Source: a virus | Length of the DNA stretch: 54,189 nucleotides | Strand: one strand, 5' to 3' | IMG/VR virus record: IMGVR_UViG_3300040807_003078 | Coordinates: 1-54,189 of that record | Shown here: piece after piece, positions 35,478-54,183 of the stretch | Position numbering within the stretch: position 1 is the stretch's first letter | Layout of the letters: each line of letters starts with the position of its first letter | Position numbers and translations under genes: made by a program | The notes under the pieces: generated by a model | Databases searched by the model: none | Told to the model about the DNA's origin: nothing | Seen by the model: only the letters and a program-made list of their open reading frames with translations

Positions 35478-37112
35478 ATGGCATACAAAATAAACAACAC
35501 ATTTGGAACGCTATTGGTCACGTTGGCCGATGGAACTATTGACGTTGGTACAACAGACCTCACGCTGATAGGAAAAGGTTACGCCGGCTTCGGTGAAAAA
35601 CTAAATGAAAACTTCGTAAAATTACTAGAGAATTTCAACAACACATCAGCACCGTCAAACAAGATCCAGGGTCAGATGTGGTATGACAAGACAAACAATC
35701 AAATCAATGTCTACACTGGGTCAAAATGGAAACAATTAGGTTCAACTGTTAACTCTACAACAGCACCCAGCGATGCGGCCACTGGTGATATGTGGTTTGA
35801 TACGTTGAACACCCAACTATACGTGTACACTGGTACGGCGTGGACTCTGATTGGTCCAACCACAGTTTCTGGATCAGGTGTGACACAGGTCGTTACAGAA
35901 TCACCAGAAGACAACACAGGGGTAAAAAGATCAATTCTAAAATTAGTTGCCAATGACACTGTCGTTGGTGTGGTATCTAATCTGGCATTCACACCAAGTG
36001 CGACTGAAACATTAGGTGCGGCACTGATCACAGCAGGTTTTTCATCAGTGGCACAAGGTATACAACTTTCAAGTTCTGTGTCATCAGCAAAATTCAGAGG
36101 CACGGCGACGGATTCTGATCTTTTAGGCGGGGTATCGCCTTCAAGTTATCTGAGATCAGATGGTGCTGACACAACCACGGGTAGATTGACAGTACAATCC
36201 GATGATGGTATACGTTTGGGAGCAGGCAATGACATCACAATGACATTGTCGAGTGATGATTTCACTATCGCACAGACCACGCAGGACAAGGACATCATAT
36301 TCACGGTGAACGATGGTGGCACAACAAAAGAAGCATTGAGAATAACAGGATCCACAGGTAGGATCGAGAGTTTACGAGTAGGCGATTTGACCGTTGATGG
36401 CACACAGACGATCATCAACACGTCGACATTGTCGGTAGAGGACAACATCATAGAACTGAACAGGAACATATCGAGTGCTTCCGGCATGCCGAGTTACACA
36501 GGTTTGAAAGTGAACAGGGGTGAAACTTCATCCTCCACTGAGCAAAATCTCTATTGGGTATGGGACGAAACATACGCAAGTGATGAATCAACAGGTAGCG
36601 GTATAGGTGCGGCCGGTGGTGCTTGGACGGCATTTATGTCTGCCCAGACACAAGGCAACATCGAGGCTCCCACACTGGTGGATATCAGGGCAAACGTGGT
36701 ACACGCAACTTCAACAGCGGCGAGATACGCTGACTTGGCAGAGCGTTACGAAGCGGATTGTTTGATGGAAGTCGGAGATGTGGCGATCTTGGGCGGAGAA
36801 GCAGAAATTACAAAATGTGAGGACGAGTTGTCAGACGCCGTATTTGGTGTTATATCAGAATCACCAGCATTTTTAATGAACGCAGAAGCAGGAAACAACG
36901 AGTCTCATCCGATGGTTTGCTTGAAAGGACGTGTATCAGTCAAGGTACAAGGGTCAGGCAAAGCGGGTGATCGTGTAGTATCAGCAGGAAATGGTGAGGC
37001 ACGTGTGGCACAACTTGAAGAATGTACCGCTTTTAACACCTTGGGAAGGCTGATCAAGGATAAATACAACGTAGAAACAGCATTAACAGAGTGCGTGATA
37101 GGAGTGAAATAA
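35478..37112 (+). CDS. Tail fibre-like structural protein, paralogue 3
   Basis: The 544-residue protein shares the N-terminal module (LIGKGYAGFGEKLNENFVKL, LENFNNTSAPSNKIQGQMWY, D-K-T-N-NQINVYTG) with paralogues 1 and 2, and a repeated GDMWFDTLNTQLYVYTG. It shares FTVNDGGTTKEALRITG with paralogue 2, and the distal YADLAERYEADCLMEVGDVA, FGVISESPAFLMN and VCLKGRVSVKVQGSGKAGD with paralogue 1. So it looks like a mosaic of the other two, or they derive from it. Probable trimeric fibre with a receptor-facing tip. Confidence 0.7.
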   Translation: MAYKINNTFGTLLVTLADGTIDVGTTDLTLIGKGYAGFGEKLNENFVKLLENFNNTSAPSNKIQGQMWYDKTNNQINVYTGSKWKQLGSTVNSTTAPSDAATGDMWFDTLNTQLYVYTGTAWTLIGPTTVSGSGVTQVVTESPEDNTGVKRSILKLVANDTVVGVVSNLAFTPSATETLGAALITAGFSSVAQGIQLSSSVSSAKFRGTATDSDLLGGVSPSSYLRSDGADTTTGRLTVQSDDGIRLGAGNDITMTLSSDDFTIAQTTQDKDIIFTVNDGGTTKEALRITGSTGRIESLRVGDLTVDGTQTIINTSTLSVEDNIIELNRNISSASGMPSYTGLKVNRGETSSSTEQNLYWVWDETYASDESTGSGIGAAGGAWTAFMSAQTQGNIEAPTLVDIRANVVHATSTAARYADLAERYEADCLMEVGDVAILGGEAEITKCEDELSDAVFGVISESPAFLMNAEAGNNESHPMVCLKGRVSVKVQGSGKAGDRVVSAGNGEARVAQLEECTAFNTLGRLIKDKYNVETALTECVIGVK

Positions 37113-38133: not shown

Positions 38134-38451
38134 ATGGACATTGACAATCTAAAACAAATCTCTCAACAGAGTTATGACATTGCCTTACAGAAGGCCAATG
38201 CATTGAAGAAAGCGGAATCAGACCAGATAGTGGTCTATGAGAATCACATATTCAAGGCAGATGTGATCACCATATGCCTGGTGAAGACGCTCGCAGAATC
38301 ACACAGTAGTTTTTTTGTACTCGACACCAACCACAATCCGGTTGAAATCAAGGACGGTGCAGGGTTCCTCAAGGCATTGATCGAAAAAAACCAATCATCC
38401 CTAAACGCATACCATCAGTTACATCAAAAATTCAGAAACAAAAGGGCATAA
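38134..38451 (+). CDS. Small phage protein of unknown function, first gene of the island
   Basis: I start the protein at ATG 38134 (105 residues, MDIDNLKQISQQSYDIALQK). A TTG five codons upstream lies in the -10 box and would not be in the transcript. The protein has an N-terminal helical part and a short beta part (SFFVLDTNHNPVEIKDGAGF), then a helical tail (NAYHQLHQKFRNKRA). No known motif is seen. No Shine-Dalgarno sequence precedes the ATG. The gene couples to the following glycosyltransferase by TAATG. Confidence 0.65.
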   Translation: MDIDNLKQISQQSYDIALQKANALKKAESDQIVVYENHIFKADVITICLVKTLAESHSSFFVLDTNHNPVEIKDGAGFLKALIEKNQSSLNAYHQLHQKFRNKRA

Positions 38452-39200
38452 TGAAGAAGGGGGTTCTGCTTTATTGTTTCAACACAAGTCAAGTGGCCTA
38501 CAGCAGGATCACGGAGCGGTGTGTGGCCTTGATCAAGAAGCATCTGCGTCTGCCGATCACTGTGGTAACCAACTTTGAAACATTCAAATTCATGAAGCCG
38601 ATGGGTATGGTCAACTACAAGTTGATAGAGAACGATATCAAAAACAACAGGGCAGGAAAACCCTGGTACAACCTTGAAAGACATCTTGCCTATCAACACT
38701 CGCCATATGATAGGACGCTGGTCATAGACGTTGATTATTTTTGCTACACGGATAAACTTCTGAGACTGATGGACACCGAGAACGATTTCCTGGTACACAA
38801 AGATGCCCACGATGTCATGTTCAATACCAATATGCGGTTCGAAAGGGAAGCCATGCTGGACATTGTCTGGGCCACTGTCCTTATATTCAGCAAGACACCC
38901 AGGGTTAAAGCAATATTTGACACAGTGAAACTGGTCAAGGACAACTACTATCATTTCTGCCAACTGTACAGGATCTCATATAAAAATTTCAGGAACGATT
39001 ACGCCTTTGCTATAGCACTAGAACAGATAGGTGGACACAGGGACTATGACATAATCAAGGACAGCATAGCCACTGTGCCTGCAGATGCCAAGTGCAGGGT
39101 ATTGAAAGAAAATGGTGCCGTGGTCGAGTGGAATGGCAAGGTAGTTTCCCTTGAAGACCAGGACATACATTTTTTGAACAAGGATATCATGTATGTCTAG
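38451..39200 (+). CDS. GT-A-like glycosyltransferase 1
   Basis: The 249-residue protein has a Rossmann-type N-terminus (GVLLYCFNTSQVAYSRITER) and the nucleotide-sugar/metal motif VIDVDYF with D93-V-D95 (DxD). Further on, FNTNMRFEREAMLDIVWATV and NDYAFAIALEQ resemble acceptor-binding segments of family-8-like enzymes. It probably transfers a sugar from a nucleotide donor in the cytoplasm. The family cannot be fixed by eye, and donor and acceptor are unknown. It overlaps the next GT by 8 bases. Confidence 0.6.
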   Translation: MKKGVLLYCFNTSQVAYSRITERCVALIKKHLRLPITVVTNFETFKFMKPMGMVNYKLIENDIKNNRAGKPWYNLERHLAYQHSPYDRTLVIDVDYFCYTDKLLRLMDTENDFLVHKDAHDVMFNTNMRFEREAMLDIVWATVLIFSKTPRVKAIFDTVKLVKDNYYHFCQLYRISYKNFRNDYAFAIALEQIGGHRDYDIIKDSIATVPADAKCRVLKENGAVVEWNGKVVSLEDQDIHFLNKDIMYV

Positions 39201-39999
39201 GGGATTCGTTTGGTTTTGTCAGAACAACAATGACACAGATTATGTGAAGTTGTCTTGCGAACTGGCCAGGACCATAAAAAAGCACAACAAGGACAGTGAC
39301 GTTTGTGTCATAGTGGACAAAGACAGTGTGTTCGAAGACAAGCACGTTGATGTGATAAAGGTGTTGGACAGCGATGAAGCAGAAGGACATAACAAAAAAT
39401 TCGCCAATGAGTACAAGGTTTTCGAACTGACACCCTTTACTCACACAATAAAACTAGAAGCAGATATGCTTTGGAACAGCAGAACCGATTGGTGGTGGAA
39501 CTACCTTTGTCAGCACAACCTGGTGTTTTCGATCTCCTGCCTGAACTACAAGGAGCAAAGAGTTGATGACACAACCTACAGGCCTTTCCACGCTAGGAAT
39601 CATCTACCTAATCTATACAATGGTATGACATATTTCAGGAGAAGCATGTTTGCCCACACATTCTTTAGAGTGTGCGAAAGCATCGTTAAAAACTGGAAGG
39701 TCGTGAAGGAAGAATTATTACAAACCTGTTTCGACAGCGTTCCAACGACAGATGTCGTTTACGCACTTGCTTACAGGATCATTGATCCAACAATGCAGGG
39801 CATCATAGACTACCCGTGGTTCAAGTTCATACACAACAAAAGTGGCATACACCAAAGGAAATATGACTATGATACAATGAACTATTTCTATCCTGTGCGT
39901 GTGGATGACAACATTTACTTTGGAGGGAAGAGGATCACAGCACCACTTCATTACTTCAATAAAAATTTCTTGGAGGTATTAGATGTCAGATCGATTTAA
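39193..39999 (+). CDS. GT-A-like glycosyltransferase 2 (putative)
   Basis: This 268-residue protein starts with GFVWFCQNNNDTDYVKLSCE, has an IKLEADMLW motif (E89-A-D91) in the DxD position, and contains NGMTYFRRSMFAHTFF and TTDVVYALAYRI, which parallel the acceptor region of glycosyltransferase 1. The two are therefore probably distant relatives. The first acidic residue of the DxD is Glu, which some GT-A families accept. The substrate is unknown. The gene overlaps the next by 17 bases. Confidence 0.55.
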   Translation: MSRGFVWFCQNNNDTDYVKLSCELARTIKKHNKDSDVCVIVDKDSVFEDKHVDVIKVLDSDEAEGHNKKFANEYKVFELTPFTHTIKLEADMLWNSRTDWWWNYLCQHNLVFSISCLNYKEQRVDDTTYRPFHARNHLPNLYNGMTYFRRSMFAHTFFRVCESIVKNWKVVKEELLQTCFDSVPTTDVVYALAYRIIDPTMQGIIDYPWFKFIHNKSGIHQRKYDYDTMNYFYPVRVDDNIYFGGKRITAPLHYFNKNFLEVLDVRSI

Positions 40000-40237
40000 A
40001 GATTTGTTCCCGCCAATCAAGAAGAAGAAATTCTTTGCCACGATACAGGGCAAGGAAGTAGAAGTGACGCATAAAGAAAAACTAGAGATAATAAAGAATG
40101 GCGAAGAAAACTATATTTTGGAGAACGGCAAACCCCAGAGGAAAGTGACTCTGGAAAGTAGGATAAGTTTTCCTGAACTTGAAAAACTAACAGCCGATCC
40201 CTTCTGGCCAAAACAGGACTTTGTATGGAAACTGTAA
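39983..40237 (+). CDS. Small basic phage protein of unknown function (84 aa)
   Basis: The product begins MSDRFKDLFPPIKKKKFFAT and ends EKLTADPFWPKQDFVWKL. It is Lys-rich, with predicted beta strands (FFATIQGKEVEV) and a charged middle. The ATG overlaps the end of glycosyltransferase 2 by 17 bases and its stop overlaps the next GT by 13, so it belongs to the same polycistron. No motif is recognised. Confidence 0.6.
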   Translation: MSDRFKDLFPPIKKKKFFATIQGKEVEVTHKEKLEIIKNGEENYILENGKPQRKVTLESRISFPELEKLTADPFWPKQDFVWKL

Positions 40238-41121
40238 GAGTTAAAGATTTAGATTTCGTGTTCATAAGTTTCAAGGAGCCAAACAAGGAATACAATTACG
40301 CGGACCTGTTGAACAAGGTGCCATGGGCCAAACGTGTTGACGGTGTGGTTGGTTTCGACAACGCACACAAGGCCGCGGCCGAGGTGGCGGAGACCGATTT
40401 CTTCATCTCAGTGGACGGTGACAACATCATTGATCCGAAGTTCATCCTGCAGACACTGGACTTCAAGAAAACAAATCCGAAAGCGGTGCACAGATGGAGA
40501 GCAAGGAACAGTGTGAATGGACTGATATACGGCAACGGTGGAGTGGTTGGCTGGCCTAAAGAAACCTGTCTGGGTATGAAGACACACGAGAACTCGGACA
40601 CGAAAGAAAATCAGATAGACTTCTGTTGGGGGGTTCCACACGAGAATCTCCACAATGTGTATTCGGAGACGGTGATCAATACCTCCCCTAACCAGGCATT
40701 CACGGCAGGGTACAGGGAAGGGGTAAAGATGAGCCTCGATCAGGGTAGTTCAATAAACCCAGCGGAGTTCGTGAGCCAGATGTATAGACCAAATCTTAAG
40801 TGCTTGACCACGTGGATGAGTGTGGGAGCCGATGTTGAGAACGGCAAGTACGCCATGTTGGGAGCGAGGATAGGTTGTTGGCAGACGGTGATACAGAAAT
40901 TCGAACCAGAAGTGGTCAGAGACCTCGATGACATCAACGAGAGGTTCAATGAATTGGATGGAGAAGTGGATGAACTAGTAGAACTCTATGGCAACAGCCT
41001 GAGGCAGAGACTGGGCATAACCATAGCGGACTACGATGACGAGCAAAGCAGTTTCTTCAAGTTCTGCCAACCACAGTGGATCAACAAAGGAGTACAGGAC
41101 CGTGAACAAAAGTACCTATAA
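40225..41121 (+). CDS. GT-A/GT2-like glycosyltransferase 3
   Basis: The 298-residue protein begins with LDFVFISFKEPNKEYNYADL, then VDGVVGFDNAHKAAAEVAET and DFFISVDGDNII, where D64-G-D66 is the DxD metal motif on a typical GT-A strand. HRWRARNSVNGLIYGNGGVV may be the acceptor region. The C-terminal third is helical (RFNELDGEVDELVELYGNSL). Donor and acceptor are unknown. It overlaps the first radical SAM gene by 20 bases. Confidence 0.7.
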   Translation: METVRVKDLDFVFISFKEPNKEYNYADLLNKVPWAKRVDGVVGFDNAHKAAAEVAETDFFISVDGDNIIDPKFILQTLDFKKTNPKAVHRWRARNSVNGLIYGNGGVVGWPKETCLGMKTHENSDTKENQIDFCWGVPHENLHNVYSETVINTSPNQAFTAGYREGVKMSLDQGSSINPAEFVSQMYRPNLKCLTTWMSVGADVENGKYAMLGARIGCWQTVIQKFEPEVVRDLDDINERFNELDGEVDELVELYGNSLRQRLGITIADYDDEQSSFFKFCQPQWINKGVQDREQKYL

Positions 41122-42481
41122 GTCACAGGCAGACCACGCCAAGGAGAAACTGGCCGAGGTGTCACCGACGATGTGCCTGGCAAAATGGAACCAGACCTCA
41201 CTGCACCTGCCCACGGGACTGACGAACAGTTGCTACCATCCACCACTGCACGAGATAGACTACAACAAGTTGAAGGACAATCCCGCGGCACTGCACAACA
41301 CCGCGGAGAAACTCAAACAGAGGCAACAGATGCTGTCGGGCGAGCAACCCGCAGGCTGTAGTTACTGCTGGAACATAGAGAAGACGGGCGAGATGTCAGA
41401 CAGGCACTACCGTTCAGGAGAGCCATGGGCCATGCAGGACTTCGACGCGATCAGGAGGAATCCCATAGACGAGAACTGGACGCCCAGGTACGTGGAGGTC
41501 AACTTCAGCAACGCCTGTAACTTCAGGTGCAGTTACTGTTCTCCACAGTTCAGCACCACGTGGGCCAGGGAGACGGACCTCTATGGTGAGTACCCAACTA
41601 CGCCACCGCACAACGCACCCGAACACTTCCAGGGCCGTCGCAGACCCATACCAAACAGGGATCCAAATCCCTACGTGACTGCCTTCTGGAAGTGGTGGCC
41701 TACGCTGTACAAGAACTTGAAACACTTCAGGATGACCGGTGGTGAGCCCATGATGGACGTCAACACATACAAGGTGTTCCAGTACATAATTGACAACCCA
41801 AAACAGGACCTACACCTCAACGTCACAAGCAACATGTGTCCCGCGGACAAGAAGTTGAAGGAGAAGTACTTCAACATGGCCCAGACGATATGTATGCAGG
41901 AGAAGGTGGAACACATGATGCAGTTCGTGTCAGTTGACGCATTCGGAAATCGTGCGGAGTACATACGTGACGGATTGGATTTCGATTACATGATGGACAA
42001 CGTGGAGGAGTTCCTGGACAGGATACCCGGACGTAATTCGATCACATTCATATGCACATACAACAACCTCAGTATAACAAGCATGGACAAACTGTTGGAG
42101 AAGATATTGGAACTGCGTAAGAAGTACAGCAAGACATACCAGCGTGTGTGGTTCGACGTGCCACTGCTGAGACAACCCGCGTGGCAACAGATAACAATGC
42201 TACCAGAGGCATACCAGAGCATACACGAGGACAACATAGAATACATGAAACAGAATTCCGGCGAGTCAAACGGCTTACACATATTCAAGGACTTCGAGAT
42301 CCAAAAAATGCAACGCAATCTCGCATACTGGCGTGAAAACGCGGACGCAAGTACGCAAAACAAAAAAAACTTTTACGCTTTTTTTAACGAACACGATCGA
42401 AGACGGTTAACTAGTTTTTTAAACACTTTTCCTGAGATGGAAGAGTTCTGGGAGGAGTGTAAGAACGCATGGATGATTTAG
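41102..42481 (+). CDS. Radical SAM protein 1 with N-terminal twitch-like Cys cluster
   Basis: I choose GTG at 41102 (459 residues), which has AAAGGAG nine bases upstream; an ATG at 41036 would overlap the GT gene by 86 bases. The radical SAM iron-sulfur site is C139-NFR-C143-SY-C146 and the SAM-binding GGEP lies in RMTGGEPMM. Before the core is a second Cys set: C25, C44, then C86-SY-C89-W, which resembles a twitch/SPASM auxiliary cluster moved to the N-terminus. Such proteins start radical chemistry on a substrate by cleaving SAM. Twitch/SPASM enzymes often modify peptides. It is the first of five tandem genes. Confidence 0.85.
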   Translation: MNKSTYKSQADHAKEKLAEVSPTMCLAKWNQTSLHLPTGLTNSCYHPPLHEIDYNKLKDNPAALHNTAEKLKQRQQMLSGEQPAGCSYCWNIEKTGEMSDRHYRSGEPWAMQDFDAIRRNPIDENWTPRYVEVNFSNACNFRCSYCSPQFSTTWARETDLYGEYPTTPPHNAPEHFQGRRRPIPNRDPNPYVTAFWKWWPTLYKNLKHFRMTGGEPMMDVNTYKVFQYIIDNPKQDLHLNVTSNMCPADKKLKEKYFNMAQTICMQEKVEHMMQFVSVDAFGNRAEYIRDGLDFDYMMDNVEEFLDRIPGRNSITFICTYNNLSITSMDKLLEKILELRKKYSKTYQRVWFDVPLLRQPAWQQITMLPEAYQSIHEDNIEYMKQNSGESNGLHIFKDFEIQKMQRNLAYWRENADASTQNKKNFYAFFNEHDRRRLTSFLNTFPEMEEFWEECKNAWMI

Positions 42482-43812
42482 AATACAAGAAGCAAATACT
42501 AGACACCAAGTCAGCAAGTTTCTGCGGAGCGAAGTGGTACAACGCCACTATATGGTTGGGCAGTGGTATGACAACAAGTTGTCACCATCCACCACCACAC
42601 AAGATTGATCCAATAGCAGTACAACAAAATCCAAAGTTGTTACATAACACAGCAGAAAAGAAAGAACAACGTAGGCAGATGCAGAATGGAGAACGTCCTG
42701 CTGGTTGCGAATACTGTTGGAAGATAGAGGACATACACAGGGATAACATCAGTGACAGGGTGTACAAATCAAAAATATTCACAAACGAAGATCTAGAAAC
42801 TGCTTACAAGTTAGATCACACCCAAGATGTAAATTTGAAAACACTCGAAATAGCATTCGATAGGACTTGTAATTTTAAATGCACTTACTGTAATCCAGCA
42901 TTCAGTTCAACGTGGGCAAATGACATCAAACAGAAAGGTCCATACACAGGGATGACTACAGACGGCAGGAACCATTTCACACACGCACATGATTCAGCGG
43001 AACCATACAAGAAGGATGAGACCAATCCATACGTTGAAGCGTTCTACAAATGGTGGGAGAGTGATCTACACAAAAGCCTAGACGAATTACGTATCACAGG
43101 AGGAGAACCGATGATGTCACCTAACCTATGGAGATTGCTTGATTGGATAGAAACACAGGGTGATAAAATGAATCCCAACATGCGTATCGCTATCAATTCT
43201 AACTTAGGGGCAAAGCAGAGCATAATTGATAGATTCAAAGAGAAATTAAAGGGATTCAAGAACTTCCATTTGTATACGAGTTGTGAGGCCACGTTCGAGC
43301 AGGCAGGATACATCAGGGACGGGATGGATTTTGGCACTTGGCATTCTAACCTTTTACACATGATGGTGGATAAGGTGCCATCTGAGATACACAACATGGC
43401 AACAATCAATGCGTTATGTTTGGAGTCATTGCCTGAATTTTTAGAGAAGATGGTATGGTTCAAAAGTGCGAGTAAGGTGTATGGGCCAACGATCAATTAC
43501 ACTTTGAACATATTGAGATTTCCTAGTTTCCAATCACCGCTTGTTCTACCGGACGACCTGAGGAATAAATTTAAACTGGACTTGGTAAAGTTTTTAAATA
43601 ACAACGAAAAACATCTGGAACACATGGAAATTAATCAAACACAGAGGCTGATAGATTACTTGGACGTGGTCAAAACACCACACGCAGGTGCGGCCGCACA
43701 AGAACAATTACAGAAAGATTTCAAATTATTTTACAGTCAATACGACAAAAGATCTGGAAAGGACTTCGAAAAGACTTTCCCAATTATAGGAGAATGGTAT
43801 CGTGGCATATGA
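42469..43812 (+). CDS. Radical SAM protein 2 with N-terminal twitch-like Cys cluster
   Basis: The 447-residue protein is the closest relative of radical SAM 1: both have W-x(9)-G-x(4)-C-x-HPP, LHNTAEK, RxxM-x-GE-x-PAGC-x-YCW and later GGEPMM. The catalytic cluster is C134-NFK-C138-TY-C141 and the twitch-like Cys are C19, C38, C80 and C83. The two share enough to be recent duplicates, though gene 2 uses more A/T-ending codons. Overlap with gene 1 is 13 bases and with gene 3 is 11. Confidence 0.87.
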   Translation: MDDLEYKKQILDTKSASFCGAKWYNATIWLGSGMTTSCHHPPPHKIDPIAVQQNPKLLHNTAEKKEQRRQMQNGERPAGCEYCWKIEDIHRDNISDRVYKSKIFTNEDLETAYKLDHTQDVNLKTLEIAFDRTCNFKCTYCNPAFSSTWANDIKQKGPYTGMTTDGRNHFTHAHDSAEPYKKDETNPYVEAFYKWWESDLHKSLDELRITGGEPMMSPNLWRLLDWIETQGDKMNPNMRIAINSNLGAKQSIIDRFKEKLKGFKNFHLYTSCEATFEQAGYIRDGMDFGTWHSNLLHMMVDKVPSEIHNMATINALCLESLPEFLEKMVWFKSASKVYGPTINYTLNILRFPSFQSPLVLPDDLRNKFKLDLVKFLNNNEKHLEHMEINQTQRLIDYLDVVKTPHAGAAAQEQLQKDFKLFYSQYDKRSGKDFEKTFPIIGEWYRGI

Positions 43813-45094
43813 GTATGGGGCGAAGGAGCCTGAAAAATTAAAAATTAAAGACATGACTCCTAGGGAGAAGGAGTTATTAATCGAAAGTGATACATTCTGT
43901 ATACTTCCTTGGATGCATCTTCACGCATATCCAGACGGCAGGGCATATCCTTGTTGTTTTGCTTTTGATCCGTTCCCTGTAGGTAACTTGAATGAGAACA
44001 GCATGGAAGAGGTATTCAATGGCGAAAAAATGAAACAGATGAGAACACGTATGTTGAATAATGAAAAATCACGAGAGTGTTTGAAGTGTTATGATCAAGA
44101 GAAGTCTGGGTTCTTTTCATTGCGTCTAAGTTCGAACAAACATTTCGGACACAACATTCCATTAGTCCATAACACATTACCCGACGGTAAAGCAGACTTC
44201 GTAATGAAATATTGGGATATACGATTCTCAAATCTGTGTAACATGGCTTGTAGGAGTTGTGGAACTTGGTTTAGTTCAAACTGGTACGAGGACCATAAGA
44301 AGTTGACAGGAAGTCCACCGCCACACGCTAAGGTTATGAAAGTCGGAAGAAGCACAGATGACCTTTGGGAGCAGATGTTGGCACAGTTTGACCATACTGA
44401 ACAATTCTATTTCGCAGGTGGTGAACCAATAATAATGGAAGAACATTACAGAATACTAAAAGAACTAGACAAGAGGAAAATGTATCATGTAAGGCTTATA
44501 TACAACACCAATTTCAGCAGGACAAAATTCAAAGACATTGACGTGTTCGAATTATGGAACAAGTTTGACTCGGTCTCCGTTGGAGCAAGTCTAGATGCCG
44601 AAGGTCCTAGGGCAGAACTTATGCGTAAAGGTACTGTGTGGGAAGAGACTATCGCCAACAGGAAAAGAATGATGGAAGTGTGTCCACAGGTTGATTTCTA
44701 TATAAGTGCAACGGTTGGTTTGATAAACAGCCTACACGTCACAGATTTCCATCAGAGTTGGGTAGAACAGGGTTTGATCAAACCGCAAGATTTCAATTTC
44801 AATCTACTGCAACATCCAATATGGCAAAGGATGGACATACTACCACCGGAATTTAAAGATCAGGTCAAGGAAAAATACCACTCCCACATCTCATGGTTAC
44901 AGGGACAGGATTCTCTTACAAGGGCAACAAAAGGATTTCAGTCTGCTCTAGATTGGATGTATTCAACTGACAATCAGAAACACCTTGATCTTTTCTTTGC
45001 GAACACTAGGAAATACGATCAAATAAGGAACGAAAACAGCCTTGAAATATTCCCAGAATGGAAAGAATTATTTGAGAAGTATGAAAAGAATTAA
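43802..45094 (+). CDS. Radical SAM protein 3 with N-terminal twitch/SPASM-like domain
   Basis: The start is GTG at 43802 with AGGAG ten bases upstream. The 430-residue protein has the clearest permuted SPASM pattern: C33-xLPW, DGxAYPCC (C51, C52), GNLNENSMEEVFNGEKMKQM and C93-LK-C96 ahead of the radical SAM core C146-NMA-C150-RS-C153, with GGEPII later. In classical SPASM enzymes this Cys-rich module follows the core. The substrate is unknown. It belongs to a different branch from genes 1 and 2. Confidence 0.87.
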   Translation: MAYEYGAKEPEKLKIKDMTPREKELLIESDTFCILPWMHLHAYPDGRAYPCCFAFDPFPVGNLNENSMEEVFNGEKMKQMRTRMLNNEKSRECLKCYDQEKSGFFSLRLSSNKHFGHNIPLVHNTLPDGKADFVMKYWDIRFSNLCNMACRSCGTWFSSNWYEDHKKLTGSPPPHAKVMKVGRSTDDLWEQMLAQFDHTEQFYFAGGEPIIMEEHYRILKELDKRKMYHVRLIYNTNFSRTKFKDIDVFELWNKFDSVSVGASLDAEGPRAELMRKGTVWEETIANRKRMMEVCPQVDFYISATVGLINSLHVTDFHQSWVEQGLIKPQDFNFNLLQHPIWQRMDILPPEFKDQVKEKYHSHISWLQGQDSLTRATKGFQSALDWMYSTDNQKHLDLFFANTRKYDQIRNENSLEIFPEWKELFEKYEKN

Positions 45095-46364
45095 ACCAAG
45101 TGATGGCAATAAAACTTTCTGTATGGCCCCATGGACACACACGTATCTTTCGCCACAGACAGAGAGAAGGATGTGTTGTGCTTCAAGGGAACCAGCACAG
45201 AGTTTCAAGCAATACATAGATACAGGTAACAACGCCAAAGAGTACAAACCACTGACCCTCAAAGAGCATTGGAACTCAGAACATATGCGGTCTGTACGTT
45301 TGCGTATGTTGGCAGGAGAAGAACTGTCTGAATGTGAGGTGTGTGATCATAAACTTCTCAACACCGACGTGTACAGGTCATACTGGAATAGGCTTTTCAG
45401 CGACAGGATCGATCAAGCATATGAAAAGACCGACGACACGGGTGCCACAACTATGCCTGTTATAAGTTTTGATTACAGGTTCAATAATTTGTGTAACTTC
45501 AAATGTAGGATGTGTGGAAATATGTTGAGTTCAAGTTGGGAGGCGGAGTCTCGAAAGCAAAAGACCTGGAACAAGGAATCTTCGCCTTGGATGGCATCAC
45601 CCCTGCGAGAACAGATATCAGTATTCCAGGACACACAGGTGGTGGAGGAATTCAAGGAAGCGGTCGAGACCAAAACAATCAAGGAAATATATTGGTGTGG
45701 GGGAGAACCACTCATGTGGGATATCCATTGGACTGCGATGCAGAGGATAATAGATCTTGGATTCGCTAATCAAGTCTGTGTGAGGTACAACACAAATCTA
45801 AGCAGGACTTCGTTCAAAGGTGTAAACTTGTTTGACCTACTGCCTCAGTTCCAGGATTGGCAGATATGTTCGTCGTTGGATGGTACCGGTGAGGTGGGAG
45901 AATACATACGTGATGGTTTGAACTATGATTCTTGGTTGGATAATTTCAAACAGGGCATGGCAGTTGCGAAGACCCCTAGGGAAATGAGACTTGATTACAC
46001 TATAACGATGCCAGGATTGTTGGAACTGAAAAATATGTTTGACCTCAGCCGTGAGTTAGATACAGAGATATTGACAAAAGTCATGTTCACTTTCAGTAAT
46101 GATGAGATTTTGAGTCCATTGGCATTGCCTAAAGATTTGTTACACACTATAATTGACGAAGCACTGGCATATATGGAACCTATTGCCACGAGAAAACAGA
46201 GGGCATTGATAGATGTTTTGAAAAACCTCAAAAACAGAGAAACGTTTACTCCTACCAAAAGGGGCAAAGAGAGGCAAGAGAGTATTGACAAGATCAGGAG
46301 ACAGGACATCACAAAAATATTAAGCAGAGACGAAAGGGTGTTGGAATGGTGGACAAGTATATAA
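45081..46364 (+). CDS. Radical SAM protein 4 with N-terminal twitch-like Cys cluster
   Basis: ATG 45081 gives 427 residues; a TTG 39 bases upstream is also open but lies deep in gene 3. The core is C138-NFK-C142-RM-C145, with YWCGGEPLM further on. Twitch-like Cys are C14 (in FCMAPWTHTYLSP), C32-C33 and C85-EV-C88. The sequence is closest to genes 3 and 5 in its PW-x-H motif. Its catalytic-domain sequence differs from the others, which suggests different substrates or steps. The gene overlaps gene 3 by 14 and gene 5 by 19 bases. Confidence 0.86.
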   Translation: MKRIKPSDGNKTFCMAPWTHTYLSPQTERRMCCASREPAQSFKQYIDTGNNAKEYKPLTLKEHWNSEHMRSVRLRMLAGEELSECEVCDHKLLNTDVYRSYWNRLFSDRIDQAYEKTDDTGATTMPVISFDYRFNNLCNFKCRMCGNMLSSSWEAESRKQKTWNKESSPWMASPLREQISVFQDTQVVEEFKEAVETKTIKEIYWCGGEPLMWDIHWTAMQRIIDLGFANQVCVRYNTNLSRTSFKGVNLFDLLPQFQDWQICSSLDGTGEVGEYIRDGLNYDSWLDNFKQGMAVAKTPREMRLDYTITMPGLLELKNMFDLSRELDTEILTKVMFTFSNDEILSPLALPKDLLHTIIDEALAYMEPIATRKQRALIDVLKNLKNRETFTPTKRGKERQESIDKIRRQDITKILSRDERVLEWWTSI

Positions 46365-47527
46365 AAACAAATGTCTGTCCGCTTCCGTGGACGCACCTCG
46401 AAGTTGATGTCAACGGCGGAGCATCTCCGTGTTGTCTGTACAAAGGCAGTGTGCCAAACGTGAAAGTCTACGAGCAGAGCCTCAAGTCAATACAAGACAC
46501 CGAATACATGAGCAACCTACGAGAAGAGTTCCGTAATGGAGAACGTCCTGCGGGTTGTCAGAGTTGTTGGCAGGAGGAAGACGCAGGTAAAACAAGTAAG
46601 AGACAGAATTCAATATACAAGATGAAGACGAGTCTAACGGACTGGACACCCGATAGCGAGCCAACGCTGAAGTTCATTGACTTTAAGTTAGGCAACGTGT
46701 GTAACCTCAAGTGTAGGATATGTGGTTCCTGGAGTTCTTCGAAATGGGCACAGGAAGAGATAGACTACGAGACGGCCAAAGGCGGAGACAATCCTCTGGC
46801 CAGGAAACAATTACGTGAGGGTGGATGGCCGAAACGTAACCCGCAGTTCTTCGAGGACCTCAAGGAAGATCTCAAACACGTGGAGTACTTTGAGTTCACT
46901 GGCGGAGAGCCGTTCATGATCAAGGATCATTTCAAGATCTTGATGCACTGTGTTGAAAAAGGGTACGCGAAGAACATAGACATACACTACAACACAAACG
47001 GCACACAACTTCCGCCACAGGAGATATTTGACCTATGGGCCTACTTCAAACACGTTGAGATTGCCTTCAGTATTGATGACATAGGTGAGGCGTTTGAATA
47101 TCAGAGACATCCTGCGAACTGGAGAGAAGTCAGTGCTAATCTCGTCAAGTTCAAAGAAAGACAGACTTCTAACATGGACTTCCAGATATGTTCCACGGTT
47201 TCGATATTTAATGTCTTCAACTGGGCAAAGATGGCCCTATGGGTGGCACAGTTCCAGCCAAAATTCTTCTACGTCAACACCTGCTTTGATCCGGATGTTT
47301 TCAACATACAGACACTGCCGAAACAGGTAAAGGACATAGTCACGGACAGATATCATATGTTGACTGACTATCAACCCAGCATAAGGTTCATGAATGCCGC
47401 GGATCGGGACACACCAGAAATGCGAGAACAACGTAAAGCAAGGATTTTACAAACTGACAAGTATAGGAAAGAAAATTTTGGGGAAGTTTTTCCACTTCTA
47501 AATAAGGTATTACAGATATATGACTAA
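46346..47527 (+). CDS. Radical SAM protein 5 with N-terminal twitch-like Cys cluster
   Basis: The 393-residue protein is the shortest of the set. C11-PLPW, then ASPCC (C29, C30) and C71-QS-C74-W form the N-terminal cluster. The catalytic site is C119-NLK-C123-RI-C126, followed by FEFTGGEPFM. It keeps the NGERPAGC-x-x-CW motif of gene 2 and the PWTHL motif of gene 4, so it links both branches. It overlaps the SGNH-like gene by 8 bases. Confidence 0.87.
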   Translation: MVDKYIKTNVCPLPWTHLEVDVNGGASPCCLYKGSVPNVKVYEQSLKSIQDTEYMSNLREEFRNGERPAGCQSCWQEEDAGKTSKRQNSIYKMKTSLTDWTPDSEPTLKFIDFKLGNVCNLKCRICGSWSSSKWAQEEIDYETAKGGDNPLARKQLREGGWPKRNPQFFEDLKEDLKHVEYFEFTGGEPFMIKDHFKILMHCVEKGYAKNIDIHYNTNGTQLPPQEIFDLWAYFKHVEIAFSIDDIGEAFEYQRHPANWREVSANLVKFKERQTSNMDFQICSTVSIFNVFNWAKMALWVAQFQPKFFYVNTCFDPDVFNIQTLPKQVKDIVTDRYHMLTDYQPSIRFMNAADRDTPEMREQRKARILQTDKYRKENFGEVFPLLNKVLQIYD

Positions 47528-48314
47528 GAAAATTATAGCAGGTGGATGCAGTTTTACACTGGGCAATGAATTGTCAGATGACGTGGACGGCAAGACGCCA
47601 TCCAAGCAAACTTGGTCGTATAGGTTAAGTGAACACTCAGGCAGTGAATACGTGTGCAGAGCGTTCGGAGGACACGGCAATCAAGCAGTAGCAAGAAGAG
47701 TCTTCAACGCAGTGGCAAACACAGATGATATCAAGGGCGTGGTGATCATGTGGACTTTCCTTTCTCGATATGATTGGGCAATGCCTAGACACGTAAACCT
47801 CGAAGACACAAGGTGGGCATCGATTTCCCCATGGGACACAGAAAACGGAGACAAGGAAGCATACAAGGTGATGGAAGAATCAAAAGAACAGCAGGAACAG
47901 TGGCGTATCAGACAGCAATTCCTAAGTGAGACAGGTGTGCGTGATTTCGCTGAAAGCATCTACAAATATGGTGCCAACCAGTACCACGAAACTTATCTCA
48001 GTTGGAAGAGCATTATTTGGTTACAGAACATTTTAGAGAAGAAAAAAATACCATTCATGTTCACCCTAGCAGACAACAGTCTTTTTTACCAAGAGTTCGA
48101 TCAACATAAGGATCAAGATTCATTCATGAATGCTCTACATTCCGAGATAGATCTTTCCAAATGGTTTTTCTTTGGTGAGCGTTGCATGGGGTTCAATCAG
48201 TGGGCAATGATGGAAGATTATCCACGTGGCACCACACACCCACTTGACGAGGCACACCAAGATGCTGTAAAATTAATGTTACCAACTTTTAACAAACTAA
48301 TAGGAGGCGAATAA
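47520..48314 (+). CDS. SGNH/GDSL-like hydrolase or acyltransferase
   Basis: The 264-residue protein shows SGNH blocks: block I GGCSFT with Ser11, block III GGHGN (50-54) and a C-terminal HPLDEAH with Asp243 and His246 as candidate catalytic dyad. SGNH proteins cleave or add O-acyl groups on sugars and other esters. Located between radical SAM genes and sugar-modifying genes, an acyl decoration or trimming role is plausible. The block II Gly is not identified, so the fold call is moderate. Its stop overlaps the next ATG (TAATG). Confidence 0.65.
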   Translation: MTKKIIAGGCSFTLGNELSDDVDGKTPSKQTWSYRLSEHSGSEYVCRAFGGHGNQAVARRVFNAVANTDDIKGVVIMWTFLSRYDWAMPRHVNLEDTRWASISPWDTENGDKEAYKVMEESKEQQEQWRIRQQFLSETGVRDFAESIYKYGANQYHETYLSWKSIIWLQNILEKKKIPFMFTLADNSLFYQEFDQHKDQDSFMNALHSEIDLSKWFFFGERCMGFNQWAMMEDYPRGTTHPLDEAHQDAVKLMLPTFNKLIGGE

Positions 48315-49332: not shown

Positions 49333-49763
49333 AGATATTGATTATGGGTTTGCCAGGTTCAGGCAAGACAACTCTAGCAAAACATCTTGTACCGATGTTG
49401 AATGCTGTTTGGCTGAATGCTGACGCAGTGAGGAAACAAGCAGACGATTGGGATTTCTCAGAAGAGGGAAGGACCAGACAAGCAAATAGAATGAAAACAC
49501 TGGCACAAGAAACAGTAGCCAGAAACAGGGTAGTAGTGGCTGATTTCATATGTCCAACAGAAAGCACTAGGCAGGACTTTGACGCAGACTACACAATATG
49601 GATGGACACAATAAAGGAAGGCAGATTCGAGGACACAAATAAGATGTTTGAATCACCAACAGCATATGATTTCAAAGTCACGCACATAGAGGCGAATATG
49701 TGGGCGTACCTTATAAAACAAGACATAATAGACAAACACGGAAACCTAGGACCACACAGATGA
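49329..49763 (+). CDS. Adenylylsulfate-kinase-like P-loop kinase
   Basis: I place the start at GTG 49329 (GTGA overlap; GGGAGG upstream), giving 144 residues. KILIMGLPGSGKTT carries the Walker A motif at 7-14, WLNADAVR takes the place of the DGDxxR substrate motif of APS kinases, and ADFICPTESTR resembles the APS kinase lid region (ICPxxxxR). APS kinase makes PAPS, the sulfate donor. Many phage members of the family act on other substrates. The enzyme may supply an activated group to the island's pathway. It overlaps the carbamoyltransferase by ATGA. Confidence 0.7.
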   Translation: MKILIMGLPGSGKTTLAKHLVPMLNAVWLNADAVRKQADDWDFSEEGRTRQANRMKTLAQETVARNRVVVADFICPTESTRQDFDADYTIWMDTIKEGRFEDTNKMFESPTAYDFKVTHIEANMWAYLIKQDIIDKHGNLGPHR

Positions 49764-51232
49764 GAATATTAGGAATAAATTGTATGAACCACGATGCCGC
49801 GATGGCCGTGGTGGATTACAGTTCAGGCACGGGTGAGATACTGTGGGCCGCACACGCAGAACGTTACAGCAAGGTCAAGAACGATCATTACCTTAATCAG
49901 AAGATAGTGGACGAGGCCAACACGTTTGGACCGTTTGACAAAGTGGTGTACTATGAGAAACCTTTACTTAAAAAGACGAGACAGTTGTACGCAGGCCAGT
50001 ACGGCATGGCCATGAGTTACACGGAGATGCCACAGTGGCATCTAGACCACTTTGGAATAAAGATAGACGAGTATGTCAAGCACCACGACTCACACGCCGC
50101 CGCAGGATACTTCACGTCACCGTTCAGGGACACAGGAGCAACAATTCTCACAGTGGACGCCATAGGGGAGTGGGACACCGTTTCCATATCAACAGCGGAT
50201 AAAAATCACCTAGAAAGAAAAGAGACGATCCAGTATCCGCACAGCATAGGAATACTGTACAGTGCATTCACACATCGTTGTGGACTCAAGCCTGCGGAAG
50301 AGGAATACATCCTGATGGGCATGGCCGCGTACGGAACGCCAAAGTACAAACAAAAGATATATGACGACTTTGTGGAGCAGTCACCTTTTAAACTTAAACA
50401 GAACCTACACAGGGGATTGAGTGACTGGGAACCAAACGCAGACGTGATGGACATAGCCGCCAGCATACAAGCAGTCACGGAAGAACTGCTCGCAGATCTA
50501 TGGAACAGAGCATCCAAGTATGGCAGTAAGAATTTGGTGTATGCGGGAGGTGTCGCCTTGAACTGTGCGGCCAACAGGGTTCTGGCAAACATGGGATTGT
50601 TCGACAACATATGGATCATACCAAATCCCGGTGATGCCGGATCAAGCCTAGGCTGTATTGCCGCACACCAGAAATTACACTTGAATTGGCAACACCCGTT
50701 CTTGGGACACAACATAGACGGAGAGTATCCAGTGGACAGTCTGATCAAGGAATTGAAGGAAAACAAAATGGTGGGAGTTGCAAGTGGCAGGGCAGAGTTT
50801 GGTCCACGGGCACTTGGTAATAGATCACTGTTGGCGGACCCTAGGGGTGAGGATATCAAGGATTTGGTAAACTCGATCAAGAAAAGACAGAAGTTCAGAC
50901 CATTCGCTCCGGCCATATTAGAGGAGGATGTACATGAGTATTTCACCCTACCTAAAGCAGTTCAAAACACCCCTTATATGCAATTTACAGCGGCGTGTAC
51001 TGCTGGTAAAGACTTCCCTGCTATAATACACCATGATCACACTTCCAGGGTTCAAACGGTGCGTAAGACGGACAATCCAGGCTTCCATGCACTGCTCACA
51101 GAATGGAAAAAACAGACAGGTTGCCCTATACTTTTGAACACCAGTTTGAACATAAAAGGACAACCAATCGTGAATGACAGAGAAGATGGTAAAGCGTTTA
51201 CCAACAAATACGGAGTAAAGGTACTAGGATGA
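49760..51232 (+). CDS. NodU/CmcH-type O-carbamoyltransferase
   Basis: I choose ATG 49760 (490 residues), since MRILGINCMNHDAAMAVVD is the usual family start. The N-terminal Kae1-like half holds HHDSHAAAGY (H108, H109, H112, metal and carbamoyl adenylate site), VDAIGEWDT and YAGGVALNCAANR. The C-terminal half has GRAEFGPRALGNRSLLADPR and PILLNTSLNIKGQPIV. Both halves needed for carbamoyl-phosphate/ATP use and transfer are present. It carbamoylates a hydroxyl group of a sugar or other acceptor. It is shorter than NodU (about 560). Neighbours suggest a sugar acceptor. Confidence 0.93.
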   Translation: MRILGINCMNHDAAMAVVDYSSGTGEILWAAHAERYSKVKNDHYLNQKIVDEANTFGPFDKVVYYEKPLLKKTRQLYAGQYGMAMSYTEMPQWHLDHFGIKIDEYVKHHDSHAAAGYFTSPFRDTGATILTVDAIGEWDTVSISTADKNHLERKETIQYPHSIGILYSAFTHRCGLKPAEEEYILMGMAAYGTPKYKQKIYDDFVEQSPFKLKQNLHRGLSDWEPNADVMDIAASIQAVTEELLADLWNRASKYGSKNLVYAGGVALNCAANRVLANMGLFDNIWIIPNPGDAGSSLGCIAAHQKLHLNWQHPFLGHNIDGEYPVDSLIKELKENKMVGVASGRAEFGPRALGNRSLLADPRGEDIKDLVNSIKKRQKFRPFAPAILEEDVHEYFTLPKAVQNTPYMQFTAACTAGKDFPAIIHHDHTSRVQTVRKTDNPGFHALLTEWKKQTGCPILLNTSLNIKGQPIVNDREDGKAFTNKYGVKVLG

Positions 51233-52176
51233 GGAAAATAGTTGTAAAAGACCATGAGGTCCTGAACGTAAGTGAGTTGTTAGAGTGTCTGGCAAATGAT
51301 GTGAAATATTTTCTAATAGACGAAGGTGCCGATCTTGAAAAAGTAATGATTAGCGACTTGCCTCTAGTCAAATTACTCGCTGGCAAAGGGATCAACATTG
51401 AAACTTATAATTTAATTCAAAAAGATATAGATGGAATCACTATCACAAGGAACAATAAACTAGTGCCATTTTTCTATGCACAAAATAGTGCACCGGTATT
51501 CAAAAATCAAACGATCGAGAAACATTTTGGACTTTTTGTGAATACCAGCAGATGGCACCGTATGTTTTTGGCAAGTCATCTTTTCGAATATCACAAGGAT
51601 AAAAGTTTAATCACATTTAGACAATCAATAACAAATGATAAACAACCATGTAGGTTGTATCTGGATGATCTTTTTGAAAACACTTACAATCTTAACAGTA
51701 AAAAGTTTCTAGCACAGATAAACAATTTTATTTCAAACCTACCTTTAGAACTCACACAAGAACCAAATGATAACACTTGGGGTAATATCAATTCAAAAGA
51801 TACCTTTGTGCTGAATAAATTTTACAAGGAAATATTTGTTGACGTTGTATGTGAAACATGGCACGATGGCACGTGTTTCTACCCTACGGAAAAAACATCG
51901 AGACCAATGCTTTGCCACACACCATTTTTAGTGTACGGTGGAAAAAACTATTTGAAAAATTTAAGGAAAATTGGATTCAAAACTTTTTCGCAATGGTGGG
52001 ATGAATCCTACGACGATTATGCCGGCATTCAAAGGATATTGAAAATAGTCAGCATAGTCAATAGTTTGGCAAACAAACCAATAGAGGAACTTTCAAAAAT
52101 GTATTACGAGATGAAAGATACACTAGAATACAATTATAATTTTTACAGGAATTGTTCTGAAGTGGAGATTAAATGA
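51229..52176 (+). CDS. GT10/fucosyltransferase-like protein (putative)
   Basis: The 315-residue protein has a C-terminal half with IFVDVVCETWHDGTCFYPTE, KTSRPMLCHTPFLVYGGKNY, LKNLRKIGFKTFSQWWDESY and a D-Y-A-G-x-QRI segment. The F(Y/F)xTEKxxRPxLxxxPFxVYG block resembles the GDP-sugar-binding part of GT10 (fucosyltransferase-like) enzymes, also found in phage proteins of unknown function. The N-terminal half is not recognisable. It probably transfers a sugar. A strict family call needs a profile search. The gene is coupled to neighbours by ATGA on both sides. Confidence 0.55.
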   Translation: MRKIVVKDHEVLNVSELLECLANDVKYFLIDEGADLEKVMISDLPLVKLLAGKGINIETYNLIQKDIDGITITRNNKLVPFFYAQNSAPVFKNQTIEKHFGLFVNTSRWHRMFLASHLFEYHKDKSLITFRQSITNDKQPCRLYLDDLFENTYNLNSKKFLAQINNFISNLPLELTQEPNDNTWGNINSKDTFVLNKFYKEIFVDVVCETWHDGTCFYPTEKTSRPMLCHTPFLVYGGKNYLKNLRKIGFKTFSQWWDESYDDYAGIQRILKIVSIVNSLANKPIEELSKMYYEMKDTLEYNYNFYRNCSEVEIK

Positions 52177-53114
52177 AAATATTAGTAACAGGCGGTAAAG
52201 GTTTTATTGGATCAAAGATAGTGGAAACACTATGCAATGAGCACGAGGTCACTGTGATTGACAACAGGGACAACTACGGTATCATGTCGGACGATGAACT
52301 AAAGGTATTGTACAAGTGGCGTGAACGTAATTGGAGTAAGGTCATAGATATAGACGGTGACATACTGGACAGGCTAGACTGTATAAAGGCATTCAAGCAC
52401 AGACCAGACATGGTCATACACCTGGCCACGTATCCAAGGGCAAAAATAGTCGAAGACGATCCAGTGGTGGGAGTGCCTAAAGTGATCAACGGTACAGTTA
52501 ACCTATTATGGCACAGCCGTCACTTCGGTGTGAAAAAATTTGTGTACGTGAGCAGTAGCATGGTCTACGGAAACTTCACTGATGGTACCAAGGAAGATGG
52601 CAACACCAAACCGATCAACATCTATGGTGAGGCCAAATTGACTGGAGAGCGTATCACAAAACTGTTTTCAGCGAGGCACGGTCTGAACTACAATATTGTG
52701 CGACCCAGCGGGGTCTATGGTCCTGGGGATATGCCAGACAGGGTGGTATCAAAATTCTTTGATAGGGCAATGGAGAACAGGTCCATCACACTACACAATG
52801 GCAACAACAAAGTGGACTTCACATATGTTGACGATGCGGTGGATGGTATTATAAAGGCTTCGTTCTCTGAAGTAGCAAACACCAGTTTCAACATAACCAC
52901 AGGCAATGCCACCAGTTTGAGAGAGTTGGCGGAGACTATTGTTGATATCACAGGCAGTGAATCTCACATAGAAGACATTGGTATGCAGTCTCTATACCCA
53001 CAACGTGGCACGTTAGACATATCCAGAGCAAAGGATTTACTGGGATATAGTCCACAACAGAATTTAAGACAAGGATTGATCAACTACTATGAATGGTTAC
53101 AAAATAAAATTTAA
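52173..53114 (+). CDS. NAD-dependent epimerase/dehydratase (extended SDR)
   Basis: The 313-residue protein has TGGKGFIG (6-13) for NAD, DGDILDRLDC, HLATYPRAK, VYVSSSMVYG (Ser129 region) and the catalytic Y151-GEA-K155, with VRPSGVYGPG and FTYVDDAVDGI as in UDP-sugar 4-epimerases and 4,6-dehydratases. The usual GxxGxxG and YxxxK residues are intact. It makes or interconverts a nucleotide sugar. Its product may feed the neighbouring aminotransferase. It overlaps the aminotransferase gene by 26 bases. Confidence 0.9.
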   Translation: MKILVTGGKGFIGSKIVETLCNEHEVTVIDNRDNYGIMSDDELKVLYKWRERNWSKVIDIDGDILDRLDCIKAFKHRPDMVIHLATYPRAKIVEDDPVVGVPKVINGTVNLLWHSRHFGVKKFVYVSSSMVYGNFTDGTKEDGNTKPINIYGEAKLTGERITKLFSARHGLNYNIVRPSGVYGPGDMPDRVVSKFFDRAMENRSITLHNGNNKVDFTYVDDAVDGIIKASFSEVANTSFNITTGNATSLRELAETIVDITGSESHIEDIGMQSLYPQRGTLDISRAKDLLGYSPQQNLRQGLINYYEWLQNKI

Positions 53115-54183
53115 CGGCACTGATAGAATATACGATTCCTTCAGTTGGAGGATCACACGTAAAGCAAAGGAAGTATGGAAATCAGGCATGCACGTTTCAA
53201 GCAATCACAAAGACGGTAGTGTTTTAGATACGTTCGAGAAGTCAGTGGCCAAGTATACCAAAAGGAAGTATGCCGTTGCCGTAGGCAGTGGCACAGACGC
53301 ACTTTACTTTTCTTTAAAGGCGAAGCACATTGGGCCAGGAAGCACCGTGTTGTGTCCAGCGGTTAGTTATTTTGCCACAGCAGAAGCAATCAAGAGGACA
53401 GGTGCCACCATACAGTTCGTTGATGTTGATACCAGAGGACTGATAGGACGTCTTCCCACGGTTGGCTTGCCTGATGCTGTGGTCTATGTGAATCTGTTTG
53501 GTAACCTTGCCGACTATGATAGACTGCGACTGTATTGCGACAAGTTTAAAATTCCGTTGATAGAGGACGCGGCACAGAGTCTTGGCAGTTCTTTCAAAAA
53601 AATTCCAAGTGGCAAACTCGGAGATATCAGTGCCCTCAGTTTCGCACCCAGTAAGCCTCTGCCTTGTTTCGGCAATGGCGGAATGGTACTCACGGACAAT
53701 GAAAAAGAAAGAGAGTTGATAAGGGGTCTAAGGTATCATTCAGTAGGTACAGGAAAACTTTCCTATGGTTACAACAGTTGTCTCAGCAACGATCACGCAA
53801 ACATTTTAAATTTCTTGTTGGGAAAGTACAGTACATTGATGTCCAAGACCAGGAAGGTACGTAAATGGTATGAAGAGAAATTTCTCGATATTGGAATAAA
53901 CTCCATACAGTCATCCAACAACACCATATCAAACAATCATAAACTTGTCGTAAGGGTACAGGACAGGCAAGGACTCAAGTCTTACCTAGACTCCAAAGGT
54001 ATACAAACCCAGGTTCATTATGCCTTGCCTATGAATAAAATGGCCATGTTTGACACAGAACAGCAAATGCCAGGAGCAGAAAAATTTTGTGAAAATGTCC
54101 TATCACTTCCTATACATCCTTATCTTAAAAAATCTGAGGTAATTTATATCTGTAAGTGTATCGGAGAGTACTATGGCATTTGA
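53089..54183 (+). CDS. DegT/DnrJ/EryC1-type PLP aminotransferase
   Basis: The 364-residue protein carries the family motifs GSGTDALYFSL (67-77, phosphate binding), PAVSYFATAEAI, IEDAAQSLGS with D160, and SFAPSKPLPCFGNGGMVLT with the catalytic K189. RGLRYHSVG is the last core motif. These enzymes aminate keto-sugars made by an SDR dehydratase, which fits the overlapping gene upstream. The normal length of 360-400 residues is kept. The active site appears complete. It probably makes an aminodeoxy sugar nucleotide. Confidence 0.92.
   Translation: MNGYKIKFNGTDRIYDSFSWRITRKAKEVWKSGMHVSSNHKDGSVLDTFEKSVAKYTKRKYAVAVGSGTDALYFSLKAKHIGPGSTVLCPAVSYFATAEAIKRTGATIQFVDVDTRGLIGRLPTVGLPDAVVYVNLFGNLADYDRLRLYCDKFKIPLIEDAAQSLGSSFKKIPSGKLGDISALSFAPSKPLPCFGNGGMVLTDNEKERELIRGLRYHSVGTGKLSYGYNSCLSNDHANILNFLLGKYSTLMSKTRKVRKWYEEKFLDIGINSIQSSNNTISNNHKLVVRVQDRQGLKSYLDSKGIQTQVHYALPMNKMAMFDTEQQMPGAEKFCENVLSLPIHPYLKKSEVIYICKCIGEYYGI

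Follow-up and report, generated by a model that had tools for sequence, protein, structure and literature searches.

Introduction

Cleavage of S-adenosylmethionine to a 5'-deoxyadenosyl radical is established for the radical SAM relatives of the enzymes described here. One of these relatives, BtrN (2-deoxy-scyllo-inosamine dehydrogenase, PDB 4M7S/4M7T), oxidises a substrate that is a sugar-like alcohol. Its auxiliary cluster is fully ligated by Cys residues and was proposed to be the electron acceptor in alcohol oxidation (PMC9012708). The twitch domains of SkfB and BtrN hold one auxiliary cluster and are laid out as a Cys, a beta-hairpin, a further Cys, two helices and two more Cys (PMC6231123), and both SPASM and twitch domains have been described as C-terminal extensions (PMC9012708). 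In phages, the pelagimyophages possess a host-recognition cluster of tail fibres and glycosyltransferases, in or around which GT8-type transferases and radical SAM cassettes, the latter mentioned in passing, have been reported (PMC7029224).

In the sources found, the NCBIfam family NF033640 (N_Twi_rSAM) carries a name but no tested function. Neither its accession nor the words 'N-terminal twitch' together with 'radical SAM' were found in the literature searched, and an ordered set of five paralogues is absent from the family description. Here, we analyse such a set in the virus record IMGVR_UViG_3300040807_003078, all 54,189 nucleotides of which are referred to as the window. The virus is an uncultured aquatic myovirus, and the array is located in its tail-fibre/host-recognition part. 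Oxygen-sensitive radical chemistry by a run of five enzymes is not something for which phages are known.

Results

In the ORF listing, five array genes were found on the plus strand between 41102 and 47527, with neighbouring ORFs overlapping by about 10-50 bases:

41102..42481, plus strand: position A (gene 1), N_Twi_rSAM; GTG start with GGAG upstream, alternative ATG at 41036; twitch Cys 25, 44, 86 and 89, core CNFRCSYC at 139, GGEP at 213
42469..43812, plus strand: position B (gene 2), N_Twi_rSAM; twitch Cys 19, 38, 80 and 83, core CNFKCTYC at 134, GGEP at 211
43802..45094, plus strand: position C (gene 3), N_Twi_rSAM; GTG start; twitch Cys 33, 51/52, 93 and 96, core CNMACRSC at 146, GGEP at 206
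45081..46364, plus strand: position D (gene 4), N_Twi_rSAM; ORF opens at TTG 45042; numbered from this TTG, twitch Cys 27, 45/46, 98 and 101, core CNFKCRMC at 151, GGEP at 220
46346..47527, plus strand: position E (gene 5), N_Twi_rSAM; twitch Cys 11, 29/30, 71 and 74, core CNLKCRIC at 119, GGEP at 186

For gene D, ATG 45081, which gives a 14-base overlap with gene C, is more likely to be the start than TTG 45042. The motif scan gave one CxxxCxxC and one GGEP per gene in all five, and CxxxW preceded the core in each of them (CLAKW, CGAKW, CILPW, CMAPW and CPLPW in genes 1-5). At the second site of the module, genes 1-2 have one C and genes 3-5 have CC, while the CxxC site reads CSYCW, CEYCW, CLKCY, CEVCD and CQSCW, respectively. 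An earlier, sequence-only reading of this DNA had described five adjacent, overlapping genes carrying CxxxCxxC and GGEP as well as a Cys cluster at the N-terminus, a CxxxW before the core and a split between single C and CC, all of which was borne out by the ORF list and the motif positions in the five genes. Its pattern CxxC(W/Y) held in four of the five genes but not in gene 4, where the site is CEVCD. The five genes are one inherited set and, by their look, are co-transcribed. Two sites with the T4-like late promoter consensus TATAAATA were found, none of them near the array, and their count was not above chance.

The three core and four auxiliary Cys were 100% conserved at every position of the array (56-61 sequences each, from loci culled for redundancy), which argues for selection to keep all five proteins active. 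Further conserved Cys, lying apart from the cluster motifs, were observed in A (286 and 475, counted from ATG 41036), B (317) and E (282). As a lead, these residues could be candidate hydrogen donors, which would favour epimerisation.

Matches to NF033640 spanned nearly the whole model, with scores of 326, 301, 398, 313 and 370 bits for genes 1-5 compared to a curated NCBIfam cut-off of 170 bits, and in all five the N-terminal twitch precedes the core. Since all five exceed the cut-off, the permuted design corresponds to an already catalogued, named subfamily, and the earlier guess of a known annotated N-terminal-twitch family was right. With scores far above the cut-off and invariant cluster Cys, chance is excluded as the source of the array motifs. 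Membership in the radical SAM superfamily, whose marks are CxxxCxxC with GGEP and a partial (beta/alpha)6 barrel, is supported by the motifs in all five genes and, for B and E, by core strands and structural matches to radical SAM enzymes. The Pfam SPASM profile matched the N-terminus of genes 3-5. No BtrN-type equivalog of NCBIfam matched any of the five proteins, the resemblance to BtrN being confined to the twitch module.

When a profile of C, D and E orthologues was compared with the PDB, residues 7-82 matched the BtrN chain at 185-258 (E 2e-6), and the N-terminal 90-residue profile of genes C-E alone had BtrN as its sole match across the PDB (E 3e-3). The E values for homology to the BtrN twitch in the PDB profile searches ranged from 2e-6 to 4e-3, and the four cluster Cys of genes C-E aligned with those of the C-terminal twitch domain of BtrN. 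Further PDB matches were cytosylglucuronate decarboxylase (BlsE) and the twitch dehydrogenase SpeY (7wzv/7x0b). In the structure predicted for gene E by AlphaFold2 (pLDDT 94.7, pTM 0.89) the radical SAM core is visible and is preceded by C11, a hairpin at 17-27, C29/30, helices at 46-50 and 53-63, and C71/C74, after which the barrel strands begin; this order is the twitch layout given for SkfB and BtrN (PMC6231123). The core is also visible in the model of gene B (pLDDT 90.3). Foldseek TM-scores of 0.3-0.5 were given no weight either way on the twitch assignment, as a permuted domain cannot be aligned in sequence order. Taken together, the ligand alignment with BtrN for C-E, the element order in the E model and the complete conservation of the Cys at five positions point to a twitch domain with a predicted cluster. 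For A and B, this assignment is suggested by their Cys pattern and NF033640 scores, together with the model of gene B.

The canonical, C-terminal placement was not observed: all four ligands lie before CxxxCxxC, and no C-terminal Cys cluster was present in any of the five genes. Since SPASM and twitch modules are described as C-terminal (PMC9012708), the domain order in the array is permuted, as the sequence-only reading had proposed and as NF033640, the BtrN ligand alignment and the gene E model support. The twitch of BtrN is homologous and has its four Cys ligands aligned with those of the array, but it follows its core whereas the array twitch precedes it, and the overall sequences are far apart. 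The seven-Cys SPASM motif (CX9-15GX4C-gap-CX2CX5CX3C-gap-C) was not found in the module, which contains four Cys in genes 1-2 and five in genes 3-5. The enzymes anSME (4K37) and CteB (5WGG) have the radical SAM core in common with the array, and genes 3-5 match Pfam SPASM; however, the SPASM domain of anSME and CteB is C-terminal with seven Cys and two clusters, in contrast to the one N-terminal four-Cys cluster of the array genes.

The neighbours of the array in the window are given below, with counts referring to 60 loci culled for redundancy:

35478..37112, plus strand: tail-fibre/virion-structural-like protein, upstream of the array; 56/60 loci
38451..39200, plus strand: putative glycosyltransferase-like protein with invariant DxDY, no Pfam family; 56/60 loci
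39193..39999, plus strand: putative glycosyltransferase-like protein with invariant ExD, weak profile match to glycogenin (GT8); 59/60 loci
40225..41121, plus strand: conserved 298 aa protein, putatively GT-A-like, invariant DGDN (motif only); 57/60 loci
47520..48314, plus strand: protein with a GGCSFT motif in its N-terminal part; resembles an SGNH hydrolase by eye, without any family match
49700..51232, plus strand: Nol/NodU-type O-carbamoyltransferase; 53/60 loci
52173..53114, plus strand: NAD-dependent nucleotide-sugar epimerase/dehydratase; 28/60 loci (loci end near here)
53089..54183, plus strand: DegT/DnrJ/EryC1/StrS aminotransferase; 25/60 loci (loci end near here)

We infer a glycosyltransferase nature for the proteins at 38451..39200 and 40225..41121 from their motifs. 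A member of the GGCSFT family lies between A and B in several relatives. The setting of tail fibres and glycosyltransferases is that of the pelagimyophages, which are T4-like aquatic phages (PMC7029224), and the likeness of their radical SAM cassettes to the array is one of setting. The gp6-like baseplate protein of the window, in contrast, is nearest to those of jumbo myoviruses, e.g., Atu_ph07. Directly 3' of the gp6-like baseplate wedge gene there is a single ORF of 4276 aa (15686-28516), followed at 32168-33592 by a glycine-rich, fibre-like protein whose C-terminal part is Hint (hedgehog/intein)-like by look (CFIAGTMISMADG). An aspartyl/asparaginyl beta-hydroxylase (PF05118) is encoded at 33585-34253 in the tail-fibre region; it gave no tblastn match in deposited phages, and an enzyme of this kind is listed as core in pelagimyophages (PMC7029224).

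The order in the fetched viral loci was ABCDE, as in the window, in 90 and ABCED in 22, many contigs having been fetched twice and entered as separate loci. All 40 related virus records tested carried 5-13 copies of the family; these relatives were picked by similarity, so that the counts are no rate for all T4-like phages. IMG/VR was searched by single-protein scans, and the scan with gene B matched at least 599 stretches; among the matches listed, 598 were relatives. Among 50,697 records of deposited phages, matches were obtained only in Vibrio phages K566/K567 and in one short single-cell marine virus record, and plasmids gave no match. From the locus, record and deposited-phage counts, the five-gene array is routine in this uncultured lineage, whereas isolates nearly lack it. 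Five such genes in a row had been called unusual, which is true among deposited phages but not in the array's own lineage, where ABCDE or ABCED is the rule.

A quick maximum-likelihood tree resolved each of the five positions as one clade on a long stem (SH-aLRT 99-100), which places the duplications before the split of the compared phages. The deeper division into A+B (support 86) and C+D+E (support 93) recovered, with moderate support, the two branches previously proposed for genes 1-2 and 3-5. A recent tandem expansion yielding overlapping and largely redundant activities might explain the range of 5 to 13 copies per record and the extra E- or C-like copy present in some loci. We regard it as very improbable, given the separate, well-supported clades on their long stems and the same or nearly the same order in phages that share only about 50-60% identity in their B and C proteins. 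For the five core genes the tree contradicts recent duplication, which stands only for the extra copies. The array is old and has been maintained as five specialised paralogues; that all five distinct copies are strictly conserved suggests that each has a non-redundant role. Its degree of conservation as a five-paralogue set is apparently unreported.

Homologues were also found in other lineages. Vibrio phage K566 has six matches in the whole record, of which four N_Twi-like copies lie within 7 kb, alternate with GT8 genes (Pfam) and are near LpxC and a gene annotated as PagP. The K566/K567 copies are 20-27% identical to the array and GT8-interleaved, without an orthologous ABCDE order. Bacterial genome G397 contains four tandem copies in an O-antigen export cluster with an ABC-2 permease, rfbC, rfbD, a TylF methyltransferase and WbsX; its Wzt-type ATPase carries a twitch radical SAM part C-terminally in a single ORF of 854 aa (ABC_tran, Wzt_C, SPASM and Radical_SAM; L170:8579-11143, minus strand), and three more copies come after it. 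In bacterial genome G429 one copy lies near a GT2 gene and a nucleotide-sugar epimerase. The family was rare in broad bacterial genome samples (1/289, 3/398, 1/195 and 1/78, the last sample being built around G397, which was already known to be positive). Three of the positives, G040, G041 and G042, had been chosen beforehand for a phage-like array, and their arrays are probably misbinned viral contigs.

Discussion

The array is a real, well-conserved system of a known enzyme kind, for which a role in tailoring surface glycans is plausible but unproven. From the gene company, we consider it slightly better than an even chance that the array performs radical tailoring of a surface glycan, O-antigen/LPS-like on the infected cell or a virion glycan. 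Each core cluster would split S-adenosylmethionine, and the resulting 5'-deoxyadenosyl radical would take a hydrogen from the substrate, while the N-terminal cluster might accept or return an electron, as proposed for BtrN. The company of the array suggests that the substrate would be a carbohydrate that the adjacent GT-like enzymes make and the carbamoyltransferase decorates, most probably the O-antigen/LPS-like glycan of the infected cell or a virion glycan. The five enzymes may work at different positions or steps, through oxidation, epimerisation or deoxygenation of sugar carbons, and the likely benefit would be an altered receptor surface, e.g., one excluding competing phages. A further proposal, which we put forward tentatively as a possibility, is that five ancient, non-redundant enzymes form a multi-step radical assembly line that together alters the sugar carbons of a surface glycan during infection, kin to an undescribed bacterial Wzt-fused system.

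A carbohydrate substrate is preferred because carbohydrate-gene company recurs across phages and bacteria: three GT-like genes, the carbamoyltransferase, the epimerase and the DegT aminotransferase are conserved in the 60-locus set, and such company is found in three further lineages (K566, G397 and G429). That the five clades, their order and the Cys ligands are all kept was also counted for surface glycan tailoring, as were the NF033640 scores, the homology to the BtrN twitch with the BlsE and SpeY matches, and the cassettes and GT8-type transferases of pelagimyophages (PMC7029224). Against it, shared company among related phages may reflect common ancestry rather than functional linkage, the three upstream GT calls derive from motifs and one weak glycogenin match, and the copies dispersed in jumbo relatives have no consistent carbohydrate neighbours. 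Likewise, the best whole-protein structural matches include the peptide-acting anSME, CteB and SkfB. Many characterised SPASM/twitch enzymes modify peptides, and SuiB and EpeE are also among the Foldseek and profile matches, which is what would be expected of peptide or protein maturases, RiPP-like or tail-fibre-modifying, that add crosslinks, epimers or oxidised residues to fibres or to a small phage peptide. Tail-fibre-like genes precede the array in 56/60 loci, and the aspartyl/asparaginyl hydroxylase upstream at 33585-34253 is a side-chain modifier. However, the N-terminal extension is a twitch module, no RiPP recognition-domain family was matched in NCBIfam or Pfam, and the bacterial homologues sit in polysaccharide rather than peptide clusters. 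In a survey of ORFs of at least 60 aa, the small ORF ahead of the array (39983-40237) was matched by look-alikes in no more than about half of the 60 loci, with a different small family in others, so no obligatory precursor was found. We judge maturation of peptides or proteins rather unlikely.

Less probable again would be action on free small molecules such as nucleotide sugars, aminocyclitols or nucleotides, with a modified nucleotide or a diffusible secondary metabolite as the product in place of a surface glycan. The substrates of BtrN, SpeY and BlsE are small carbohydrates or nucleosides, viperins and MoaA act on nucleotides, and carbamoyltransferases and DegT aminotransferases are found in antibiotic pathways too; yet a polymer of the cell surface is indicated by the fusion to a Wzt export ATPase with a carbohydrate-binding domain and by LpxC as a neighbour in K566. 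For a named family without a function, the conserved quintet and the Wzt fusion provide a concrete hypothesis, radical tailoring of surface polysaccharides. If this is true, the chemistry that aquatic phages use to remodel host or virion glycans is one so far known mainly from antibiotic biosynthesis, with a bearing on how phages compete and how receptors change in the ocean and in lakes.

Some members of the family depart from the five positions. The jumbo-sized relatives G019, G025, G035, G038 and G009 have several N_Twi_rSAM copies dispersed outside the array; no partner family was consistently found beside these copies, and their neighbours include one Fe-S biosynthesis protein (PF01521) and one S-adenosylhomocysteine hydrolase. 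Divergent radical SAM genes outside the five clades occur in or beside the arrays of relatives (L129:8529-10004, L143:8853, L125:13877 and L108:14617). Bacterial members of 574 and 592 aa (L170:4235-5959 and L171:7421-9199, respectively) show an insertion in the core between CxxxCxxC and GGEP.
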